Part shown: piece after piece, positions 61,801 through 63,479 of the stretch
Numbering within the stretch: position 1 is the stretch's first letter
Layout of the letters: each line of letters begins with the position of its first letter
Source of the DNA: Polyangium fumosum
GTDB lineage: Bacteria; Myxococcota_A; Polyangia; Polyangiales; Polyangiaceae
Direction: 5' to 3'
Assembly: GCF_005144585.1 (NCBI RefSeq)
Contig: NZ_SSMQ01000027.1
Coordinates: forward strand, 62,001 to 126,000
DNA length: 64,000 nucleotides
Program-made: the position numbers and the translations under genes
Notes under the pieces: model-generated
Databases searched by the model: none
What the model was told of the DNA's origin: nothing
Seen by the model: only the letters and a program-made list of their open reading frames with translations

Positions 61801-62681
61801 CCTGGCCCGAGCGCCCGCCGACGCGCACGATCTCGATCGCCACGACCCCGCTCTCGCTTTTCCAGGGCTGCGCGCGCCGCTTCCGGTTGCGCCAGCTCAT
61901 GGGCTTCGATGAGCCGATCAGCACCGGGTACGTGGAGCTGCCTGGGGATCCTGCGGCCGAAGTTGTGGAGGTCGACACGGAGGCTGACCTCGACCCGCGT
62001 ATCCGTGGCCTCGCGGCCCACGGCGTCCTCGAACGCTGGCCGCGCGAGGCCTTTGGCCGCTCCGTCGACGTCGCCGACGTCCGCCGTCGTCTCGCGCTCG
62101 CGGGCCTCCGCCCCGAGATGCCCGAGGCCGCACGCATTGCCGAGGGGATTGCAGCGTTCCTCGACGGCCCTTACACCCGGGGGATCCGCGATCAGGGCCT
62201 GCGCATGCTGCGCGAGGAGCCGTTTGTCCTCACGATTGGCCTTTCCGCTGCGCCGGATGGCTCTGCGCGTGCGCTCGGTCTTCGTGGTGCCGTCGATTTT
62301 GTCGTTTTTCGCCCCGATGGCACCGTTGACGTCATCGACTACAAGCTCTCGCGTCCGCGCTCGGACCTCTCGGTGTATGCGTTCCAGCTCCACGCGTATG
62401 CGCTGAGCATGCATCGCCGCGAGCCGGAGCGGCGCATTCGCGCGGGGGTCGTGTTTCTCGCAGGTTCCTCGCCGGAGCCGATCTTTCTCGCGTCGGACGG
62501 GGAGGACGGGACCATCACGAACGCAGAGCATGACCGCTTCTCGAACGAGCTGAGGACCCTCGGCGAGCGCTTCGCCGAGGCACGCTGGGCCGATCGTTTT
62601 GATGCCGTCCCGCTGGATCGATGCCGCAAGCTGCATTGCGGCTTCGTGGGGGCCTGTTACGGGCCCGAGAGTACGTTGTAG
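58866..62681 (+). CDS. addA: AddA-like UvrD helicase/nuclease
   Basis: 1271 aa. The ATG at 58866 overlaps the addB stop as ATGA. UvrD helicase motifs: Walker A ASAGTGKT (23-30), TTFSRAAA, DEFQD (395-399), GDRKQSIYGFRGAD, VRLMTIHASKGLDFP and LTYVAMTRPK. The C-terminal PD-(D/E)xK nuclease has Asp1144 and Asp1158-Tyr-Lys1160 (VIDYKLS). This is the ATP-driven translocase and nuclease of double-strand-break end processing. Confidence 0.92.
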   Translation: MSLTLPPEDALLYAFRRNIVVAASAGTGKTYRLTALYVLLTLGLTSMGHAEGDEPAAPIPPERIVATTFSRAAAQEIATRVQAALSEIAAWDEAGPEPKLAGLIAARRAILADPPSIPEIKRRAADALGRAAGARIDTLHGLAQQIVRTHALALGVDPQARVVEEDEAQALADLAVDEALSAALSAGGDRAEAARALVAAANGVWGARKQVASLCDRLDEEGLLPSELLLAEHEGGARSLRASLDSIVATCIAGGQRTKDAAQVLARALAQASPGELVPAVAEEPLRELFAVAMRGKTSDADKEFAAFREELPGDSNPDRAAGLLALLREAPALAVRERGIVALLEDARTRLGALRRKEGLLSFGDMLRMARDGLRDRPEIAAQVRASIDALLVDEFQDTSRAQRDIVYLLREREDSDRPPGRAPIAENLVAHGLFLVGDRKQSIYGFRGADVAVFSRITGELCGPLAREALALAPEICADEARADLVALRESRRSGGKILDFVNAFSAHDFHTPGDAHPRDFEVVYGPADRLVPVAEAAGTGEVVLVDDDGASPPDAEPVVRGATRSMREAFVAAAFTARYVRSGEGAFRDIAILARRRKTLPLLELALARIDIPHIVAGRALFDTSEVRDVAAVLRLLVDRRDRLALATVLRGPAVGLSDAALAWLGAPKTGLSLPLERSDAPRLLPALPAWEKLGPADRTRLEDFVRRFTELRRAALRLHPGEAIRAAVAAFDLDRVFASMPRPEMRIGHVDRLLGVARRRGGSLPGFVRWLDRRMRDDSDERDDTTFAEEEDAVRLMTIHASKGLDFPVVIVLDLDAGVAPRPSGLQIASLGGPKPTLILRHHASRPDPLSDVMLARLERGERPVLDALRTEAQAKADELARARELAERQRLTYVAMTRPKRALVMIGVPDPPEGSRKRAKGGSAFESLKDGLTKATIKDAITRREQASALLADPHAQPREARHGAVSPTGPAPPWPERPPTRTISIATTPLSLFQGCARRFRLRQLMGFDEPISTGYVELPGDPAAEVVEVDTEADLDPRIRGLAAHGVLERWPREAFGRSVDVADVRRRLALAGLRPEMPEAARIAEGIAAFLDGPYTRGIRDQGLRMLREEPFVLTIGLSAAPDGSARALGLRGAVDFVVFRPDGTVDVIDYKLSRPRSDLSVYAFQLHAYALSMHRREPERRIRAGVVFLAGSSPEPIFLASDGEDGTITNAEHDRFSNELRTLGERFAEARWADRFDAVPLDRCRKLHCGFVGACYGPESTL

Positions 62682-62746
62682 CTGCCGCTGCCGCTTCCGC
62701 TTCCGCTTCCGCTTCCGCGACCGCTTCCGCGACCGCTTCCGCTTCC
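62681..62746. repeat. Hexanucleotide tract, left arm
   Basis: Eleven hexamers beginning with the last base of the addA stop codon: GCTGCC twice, GCTTCC four times, then alternating GCGACC and GCTTCC, ending with GCTTCC twice. The same hexamer types recur reverse-complemented at 63408-63479. Confidence 0.8.
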
Positions 62747-62977
62747 GGTGCTTTCGGGACGGTTGTTCTTTGTTTTCGTCCGGGGAGGTCGATTGTGCCC
62801 GCGTGCTCGGAAGGCGAAAGGCCGAGCCGTGCTCACCGTCCTCGCCGTGCTCGCGCTTCGCGCTGCGCGCGGCTCCGGGCGGTTGCGCGCGGTGCGAGGC
62901 TTCGCCTCGCAGCCTTTCGCCTTCCTCCGCGCGCGGGCCGGGGTCCGGGGTCCCCGGTCGGGGATACGGAGGAAACA

Positions 62978-63301
62978 ATGGCGCTCAGAATTTATGACGT
63001 GGCGATCGAGATGCTCAGGACATTGCGGCCGGTGATCGAACGCGTCGGAACGAAGGATCCGAATCTCGGCGATCAGCTACGGCGGGCGGCGACGAGTATT
63101 GCACTGAACCTGAACGAGGGCGCGTATTCGCAGGGAAGGAACGAACGAGCCCGATGGTATACGGCAATGGGTTCGGCGGCAGAGGTCCGCGCGTGCCTGG
63201 AAGTAGCAGAAGCGCTCGGTTACATCGAAAAAGCGGACGAGAACCTGCTCGACACGCTTGACCGTATCGTAGCCACCCTGCATCGCCTCACACGTCGGTA
63301 A
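62978..63301 (+). CDS. Four-helix-bundle protein (23S rRNA intervening-sequence type)
   Basis: 107 aa. GGAGG sits seven bases upstream of the ATG at 62978. The signature is the four-helix-bundle family of rRNA intervening-sequence ORFs and the Avd-like proteins: LRIYDVAIEML, DPNLGDQLRRAATSIALNLN, EGAYSQGRNERARWYTAMGS and AAEVRACLEVAEALGYI. These small pentameric proteins are basic and may bind nucleic acid. It is flanked on both sides by complementary hexanucleotide tracts and has its own RBS. Confidence 0.82.
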   Translation: MALRIYDVAIEMLRTLRPVIERVGTKDPNLGDQLRRAATSIALNLNEGAYSQGRNERARWYTAMGSAAEVRACLEVAEALGYIEKADENLLDTLDRIVATLHRLTRR

Positions 63302-63344
63302 TACCCGAGGCGTGCCGTCCCCCCGCCAGGGCGGCACGCCTTCC

Positions 63345-63479
63345 AACGGCAACGGCAACGGCAACGGCAACGGCAACGGCAACGGCAACGGCAACGGCAA
63401 CGGCAACGGTCGCGGAAGCGGAAGCGGAAGCGGAAGCGGAAGCGGAAGCGGAAGCGGAAGCGGCAGCGGCAGCGGCAGC
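63345..63479. repeat. Hexanucleotide tract, right arm
   Basis: Eleven units AACGGC/AACGGT (63345-63410), then GGTCGC, eight GGAAGC (63414-63461) and three GGCAGC (63462-63479). The second half is the reverse-complement type of the left tract, so the two could pair around the four-helix-bundle gene. The AACGGC part has no partner on the left. Confidence 0.8.

Follow-up and report, generated by a model that had tools for sequence, protein, structure and literature searches.

The DNA analysed here, 64,000 nucleotides of Polyangium fumosum (assembly GCF_005144585.1, contig NZ_SSMQ01000027.1, positions 62,001 to 126,000 of the forward strand; "the window" below), carries near its right end a four-helix-bundle gene of the PF05635 family, set between mirrored arrays of hexanucleotide repeats. 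The evidence leans, with modest confidence, towards the window holding one copy of a dispersed gene unit, mobile or recently mobile, with foldback-like ends, and this unit is best read as related to, yet distinct from, the intervening sequences (IVSs) of ribosomal RNA (rRNA). One architecture is shared by repeated copies, the two arms of a copy match each other, base changes in an RNA leader are compensated, and the site of the window copy is empty in sister genomes. In full, the unit would comprise, in order, a hexamer array, a hairpin leader RNA, the PF05635 gene, a terminator-like hairpin, often a gene for an extracytoplasmic function (ECF) sigma factor, and sometimes another array as the mirror image of the first one. 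Present in multiple copies in soil myxobacteria, it seems to represent a kind of mobile gene unit not yet described.

Organization of the Unit in the Window

The window copy and its left neighbour are made up as follows.

62681–62747: left hexamer array, GCTTCC-type, 11.2 units (GCTGCC/GCTTCC/GCGACC), from a repeat search of the window
62795–62941, plus strand: structured RNA leader, core hairpin; covariance model R1, 97.2 bits, the window copy being among the sequences from which the model was built
62968–62972, plus strand: GGAGG, likely ribosome binding site, 5 nt upstream of the start codon
62978–63301, plus strand: four-helix-bundle gene, 107 aa, PF05635 (23S_rRNA_IVP) / TIGR02436
63308–63341, plus strand: G+C-rich hairpin, terminator-like, without a T run, directly after the stop codon
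63347–63482: right hexamer array, CGGCAA x10, then CGGTCG, CGGAAG x8 and CGGCAG
58866–62681, plus strand: outside the unit, AddA-like gene with UvrD helicase and PD-(D/E)XK nuclease

The mirrored arms are formed by 62681–62747 and 63413–63479, which are 93% complementary over 67 nt. Both tracts had been recognized in the initial annotation, which took them for exact complements; this was too strong, and the mirrored part of the right tract that it described belongs to a longer array, whose inner ten CGGCAA units have no counterpart on the left. The left array and the stop codon of the upstream UvrD/PD-(D/E)XK gene overlap by one base, the first of the array and the last of the codon. The encoded protein matches PF05635 with an E-value of 5.9e-16, above the curated cut-off, and the TIGR02436 four helix bundle model with an E-value of 6.5e-17, which bears out its assignment to the protein family of rRNA IVSs; its closest solved structure by sequence is 2gsc (XCC0516; E 2.1e-5). 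A scan of 62600–64000 against Rfam 15 returned no match up to E 1, the leader reaching no family threshold, and the neighbour on the left encodes a protein, which places the unit outside rRNA, as had been annotated. The leader region (62760–62985) folds with a z score of -5.64, and the predicted fold of the whole unit transcript, at -450.4 kcal/mol (z -11.4), pairs the two arms with each other. There is no ECF sigma gene in the window unit, where the right array comes straight after the terminator-like hairpin; comparable hairpins follow the stop codon in many other copies.

A Unit Dispersed in Polyangium

The source genome has 13 matches to PF05635, all 13 with an upstream array, and the sister Polyangium genomes G001 to G005 have 2, 10, 4, 11, and 8, respectively. 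Comparisons within the genus were made on 41 copies from these six genomes, namely the 13 of the source genome and 28 fetched from the 35 sister matches. Aligned in pairs, the copies are homologous from the array onwards, across the gene and the approximately 190-nt leader before it; in some pairs a spacer and a further gene are included. This further gene encodes an ECF sigma factor (Pfam domains Sigma70_r2 and r4_2 in the one copy checked), and ECF-sigma-like sequence is found at most 1.3 kb downstream of the PF05635 gene in 28 of the 41 copies, or in 23 of the 36 for which at least 1000 nt of downstream sequence are available. The alignments reach at least 170 aa in 18 of the 28, g3 and g4 having one such gene in common, and at g13 only the end of the ECF gene is left. 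The PF05635 genes of the source genome fall into two subtypes, with the window copy, g2, and g3 in type 2 and g4 to g13 in type 1. The ECF gene was rejected as a mark of type 1 only, given that type 2 copies have it and the type 1 copies g7, L103, and L104 do not. Contigs end in or right after the unit for g2, g5, g6, g8, and g12, and these copies could not be followed further.

Several copies are shortened or interrupted. At L108, a CTG-type array stands in place of the gene start, and L100 has lost the greater part of its leader hairpin, an array lying nearer to the gene there. Three loci of Polyangium sp. 15x6 (L300, L301, and L302) carry insertions of 5.4–8.7 kb within the PF05635 gene, at one conserved place (AEG codons). 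These insertions have common ends and differing cargo, that of L300 consisting of a metallophosphoesterase, a histidine kinase, and a response regulator. Further copies (L196–L198, L202–L204) are broken at the same place.

A Structured RNA Leader

The leader was aligned for 36 of the 41 Polyangium copies; the alignment does not include L096, L104, L108, and L110, nor L100, in which little of the leader is left. In the case of L096, the stop codon as used seems wrong, because the reading frame enters an array. GGAGG closes each row of the alignment, the rows having been deliberately trimmed at that point. A structure of 40 pairs is paired in 99.2% of the cells, with changes on both sides at 16 pairs (191 cells), and control structures slid along the leader pair at 31–55%, a comparison in which the proposed structure has an advantage, since it was derived from the very alignment that is scored. 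Chance as the source of the pairing is ruled out by these controls. Further pair types are no more numerous than in shuffles (22 vs. 22.3), and the two-sided changes are partly due to a single clade split, several pairs varying within the types as well. Three U-G/G-U pairs are invariant in all 35 distinct rows, and a fourth in 34 of the 35. Such pairs exist only on the sense strand, which favours a sense-strand RNA over a DNA cruciform.

The covariance model of the leader gives 54 matches in the six Polyangium genomes, the weakest with an E-value of 1.6e-4, and some of them precede broken PF05635 genes. The leader is also found directly before PF05635 genes in G015, G044, G038, G048, and Sorangium cellulosum So ce26; the model matches 8 of the 41 family genomes, most of the PF05635-bearing genomes outside the genus being without a match. 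In a convergent pair of G040, each gene is preceded by a long hairpin with almost complete pairing, whose sequence is unrelated. An Rfam search of L002, L004, L010, and L011 returned a single match, to mir-26, which scores 21.5 bits (gathering threshold 57) and lies outside the leader.

Presence and Absence at Orthologous Sites

All five sister genomes contain the flank of the window copy, and in each of them both the unit and the junction array are absent. In G004, the bases equivalent to 62675 and 63784 sit 10 apart, and in G002 those equivalent to 62668 and 63799 sit 16 apart; the right flank is present also in G001 and G005, and G003 has other DNA there. The absence of gene and arrays from this site in the five sisters suggests that the unit is a recent insertion. 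At two further sites, g11 and g13, the unit and the junction array are likewise absent in five of five sisters, the right flanks being non-collinear. Short hexamer-like stretches at some of these empty sites (in G002 at g11, in G003 and G004 at g13) may be targets or scars, and weak period-6 stretches of 27–31 nt, 296–669 nt off, occur in 3 of the 15 sister loci. The idea of a mobile form, put forward in the initial annotation, thus gains from the dispersed copies and from their presence or absence between sisters. That the unit is a version of the rRNA element, mobile or standing free, is possible, descent from an rRNA IVS being conjectural.

The same sites bear on an explanation without mobility as such, in which hairpin RNA and RNA-binding protein form a cis-regulated or defence-like pair that is kept for the benefit of the cell and is dispersed as a by-product of array recombination. 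The conservation of both leader and protein would fit such a pair, as would the ECF-sigma-like sequence after 28 of the 41 copies. It is harder to reconcile with a number of PF05635 matches that ranges from 2 to 13 in one genus, with the truncated or interrupted copies, and with three examined sites that are empty in all five sisters, and this explanation is judged quite unlikely.

Hexamer Arrays as Mirrored Arms

An upstream array is present in 38 of the 41 Polyangium copies, nearly always just before the leader, and 13 copies have arrays on both sides. Flanking arrays around further copies, for which the initial annotation had proposed to search, are therefore found, and homologues are not consistently array-less. 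In all 13 two-array copies, the complementary reading scores higher than the direct one, and the complementarity score is at least 0.5 in 11. For a copy's own arms it is 0.662, against a mean of 0.226 (standard deviation 0.088) for permuted arms, with none of 5000 permutations as high, the permutations ignoring the kinship of copies. Hexamer subtypes also match within a copy, as in CTGCTG/CAGCAG (L091), CCGTTG/CAACGG (L107), and CGGAGG/CCTCCG (L094), and hexamer content differs between copies within the genus. The polarity of the upstream array mostly tracks the gene subtype, being purine-rich in type 1 and pyrimidine-rich in type 2, although L085 departs from this. The array therefore seems to be inherited together with the unit.

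Background positions in the fetched flanks gave no mirrored pair scoring at least 0.5 (0 of 531), and at those taken in Polyangium flanks some array lies at most 500 nt away in 96 of 431 cases; these positions are spaced 400 nt apart, and hence one array may be counted repeatedly. Chance as the source of mirrored pairs is ruled out by the former count. The latter would suit a reading in which the arrays are ordinary slippage microsatellites growing in the intergenic DNA beside a multicopy gene, their arms matching through template-switch correction and having no role, while the gene spreads otherwise. It would also be in line with the variation of hexamer content between copies of one genus, and with the arrays of the source genome not being confined to PF05635 genes: 56 of their 73 left edges lie away from units and 17 at most 1.3 kb from one, so the tracts do occur elsewhere in the genome, a point that the initial annotation had raised against itself. 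Arrays also separate two related genes on contig C200 of the source genome. Such microsatellites would nevertheless have to account for an upstream array in nearly all copies at one place before the leader, for a polarity that mostly follows the gene subfamily, for the lack of mirrored pairs at background positions, and for the missing array at the empty window site in five sisters, and on these grounds the microsatellite reading is considered unlikely.

These two genes, at L046 (2095–6353), encode 333 and 321 aa and are unassigned; the hexamer arrays between them run in the same direction and lie some 2.1 kb from each other. They contain an HHVVPM..NR..AV stretch that by eye is reminiscent of HNH nucleases; the first gene has no Pfam match.

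Distribution Beyond the Genus

Outside Polyangium, 75 PF05635 copies from 26 genomes, among the matches listed, were compared. Not counted with them are the G040 loci L068 and L209–L216, which were handled apart, L265 (G028), which lies at a contig end, and the repeat loci L080, L119, L122, and L123. A period-6 array lies at most 500 nt away in 48 of the 75 copies, and on each side in 21, where 14 pairs are inverted, 4 are direct, and 3 were assigned to neither class. Mirrored arms scoring at least 0.5 occur in nine genomes of the order, one pair per genome, with the hexamers CGTGGT/ACCACG (G046 and G023), AGCCCG/CGGGCT (G027), ACTCGT/ACGAGT (G018), ACGGTC/ACCGTG (G019), ACGGGC/CCCGTG (G043), CGGCGT/ACGCCG (G048), CGGGGT/ACCCCG (G015), and ACGTGC (G008), the last being self-mirroring, so that inverted and direct readings are hardly separable (0.71 vs. 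0.61). Arrays paired across genomes score at least 0.5 in 3 of 376 cases. The complementarity of own arms outside the genus is 0.376, compared with 0.041 (standard deviation 0.030) after permutation, a value reached in none of 5000 permutations. Mirrored pairs with other hexamers in nine other genomes count against the microsatellite reading, and they weaken in particular that of a purely Polyangium microsatellite habit.

In G046, G027, G023, G018, G019, and G043, the gene is set tightly between mirrored arms, forming compact units. In some of them, those of G046 and G023 for example, the arrays are mirrored and a leader is not evident. Compact units of this kind would fit a free-standing IVS, whose arms form a transcript stem with the gene in the loop and which is excised by RNase III as in rRNA. 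The shared protein family, the complementary ends, and the pairing of the arms in the predicted unit fold point in the same direction, and a terminal stem and an RNase III cut are described for the Coxiella IVS in passages of one report (PMC4990558). The unit is not in rRNA, however; convergent pairs have same-direction arrays, and the covariation sits in a separate leader hairpin that the initial annotation had missed. Moreover, over the distances searched, an array is missing from one side in 28 of the 41 Polyangium copies (6 of these 28 lie at most 1100 nt from a contig end), and a long stem is hence unlikely to be needed in every copy. The long stem originally proposed agrees with the fold of the window unit and with the matching of arms within copies, and it is unlikely to be a general feature; an IVS standing free of rRNA seems improbable as an account of the unit as a whole.

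Several observations weigh against a mobile unit with foldback-like ends. Both arrays are seen in a minority of the Polyangium copies (13 of 41), most array edges of the source genome lie away from units, and the kinship of copies is ignored in the permutations. Among the 75 copies outside the genus, 27 have no array within 500 nt, including G057 and those of G031 at 4 of 4 loci, G029 at 3 of 3, and G028 at 2 of 3; among the matches listed, array-less copies include the highest-scoring PF05635 genes (G031, G057, G028, and the G043 loci L056–L059). Five pairs of G058 and some pairs of G038 are not mirrored. Same-direction arrays flank the convergent two-gene units of G040 (CTGGCA-type, seven loci, both sides visible in six) and a convergent unit of Sorangium cellulosum So ce26 (CCGCGT on both sides, the second gene recognized by eye), and they are found with the convergent C200 pair of the source genome. 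A clean two-sided absence was obtained at one site only, that of the window; no target-site duplication was found there, and the right boundary is blurred, with about 300 bp unmatched in G004 and G002. At a unit site of G040, its congener G049 retains unit-like remnants, so that this site favours loss over gain. Lastly, no transposase or reverse transcriptase was recognized in the unit, either among the open reading frames listed or by profile scans that covered only the PF05635 protein and one ECF protein.

Possible Mechanism and Relation to Known Systems

Foldback elements include the FB elements of Drosophila, and template switching occurs at quasi-palindromes. By analogy with eukaryotic foldback elements, the arrays of the mobile unit favoured here would travel with it and serve as its ends, and the arms may be kept alike by slippage combined with template switching, or by conversion between arms. 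The four-helix protein, a relative of Avd, might bind the unit's own hairpin RNA, either for autoregulation or for delivery of the RNA. The enzyme that moves the unit would presumably act in trans, since none has been recognized within it. A more far-reaching proposal, tentative and rather doubtful at present, is that of a new class of bacterial mobile elements, foldback-like, with hexamer-array ends regenerated as mirror images in each lineage, and moved via an RNA or single-strand intermediate that the element's own four-helix protein recognizes by the hairpin leader. If so, four-helix elements would form a wider family that includes rRNA IVSs as special cases, and the relatives of Avd would have a common function.

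To our knowledge, no free-standing example is known for the proposal that rRNA IVSs were once mobile. Multicopy units with empty sister sites make this proposal testable, through binding of the leader, the role of the arms, and movement. Arms that stay complementary while their hexamer changes also offer a natural case of how long inverted repeats stay alike.

The excerpts of PMC4990558 consulted describe the IVS of Coxiella burnetii as 428 nt long, with a 28-bp terminal stem and RNase III cleavage, and cite Ralph and McClelland for the view of the IVS as a mobile element whose open reading frame serves mobility. The PF05635 domain is called functionally uncharacterized in a part of another paper (PMC11270868). 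Like the 23S rRNA IVSs with an S23p/IVP gene, the Polyangium unit has a gene of this family framed by complementary sequences. In contrast to them, it lies outside rRNA, has hexamer arrays of variable length as arms, carries its own hairpin leader and a likely ribosome binding site, and is found in multiple copies per genome, many of them followed by an ECF sigma gene.

In the eukaryotic foldback elements FB, Galileo, and Tm1, too, the inverted ends consist of a varying number of short tandem repeats, as far as the sections consulted go, and for Tm1 tandem units of 13–15 bp are described (PMC3169594). In Polyangium, inverted ends with tandem subrepeats are seen in the 13 two-array copies, and presence or absence at orthologous sites is seen as well. 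The Polyangium unit differs from foldback elements in being bacterial, in its hexamers, and in its middle part, formed by a four-helix gene and an RNA leader; nor was a transposase recognized or a target-site duplication found.

Avd of diversity-generating retroelements belongs to the same four-helix fold family as the unit protein, a common fold of Avd and PF05635 / cd16375 being reported, with a comparison of the structures 4DWL and 2GSC, in the portion consulted of PMC10053308. The source genome differs from such systems in that no leader copy shares a contig with any of its 3 RVT_1 genes at a distance of 80 kb or less, and with no reverse transcriptase neighbouring the leader copies of this genome, a diversity-generating retroelement was rejected as the identity of the unit.

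Group II introns also combine an RNA structure with an encoded protein, and reverse transcriptase pieces (RVT_1) follow one damaged leader copy, at L201 in G004; that copy looks like a later insertion. A group II intron was rejected as the identity of the unit, such pieces being found after that one damaged copy and the window leader, unlike these introns, matching no Rfam family up to E 1. At L191, on contig C27 of the source genome, a leader copy is followed by a stretch that by eye resembles a reverse transcriptase or intron and has no Pfam match. A literature search of open-licence PMC papers yielded, among the titles and abstract openings listed, no account of PF05635 genes between hexamer arrays or of the leader, which leaves the absence of such an account unproven.

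Other Features of the Window

Beyond the unit, at 63811–64000, a 43-bp tandem repeat (TGCAACGCGTGCAGACGG...) runs on past the window end. Repeats resembling it also follow the AddA-like gene in G001, G002, G004, and G005. Further upstream, at 15644–16715, 93-bp tandem repeats read, by eye, as Cys-Asp-rich protein repeats.

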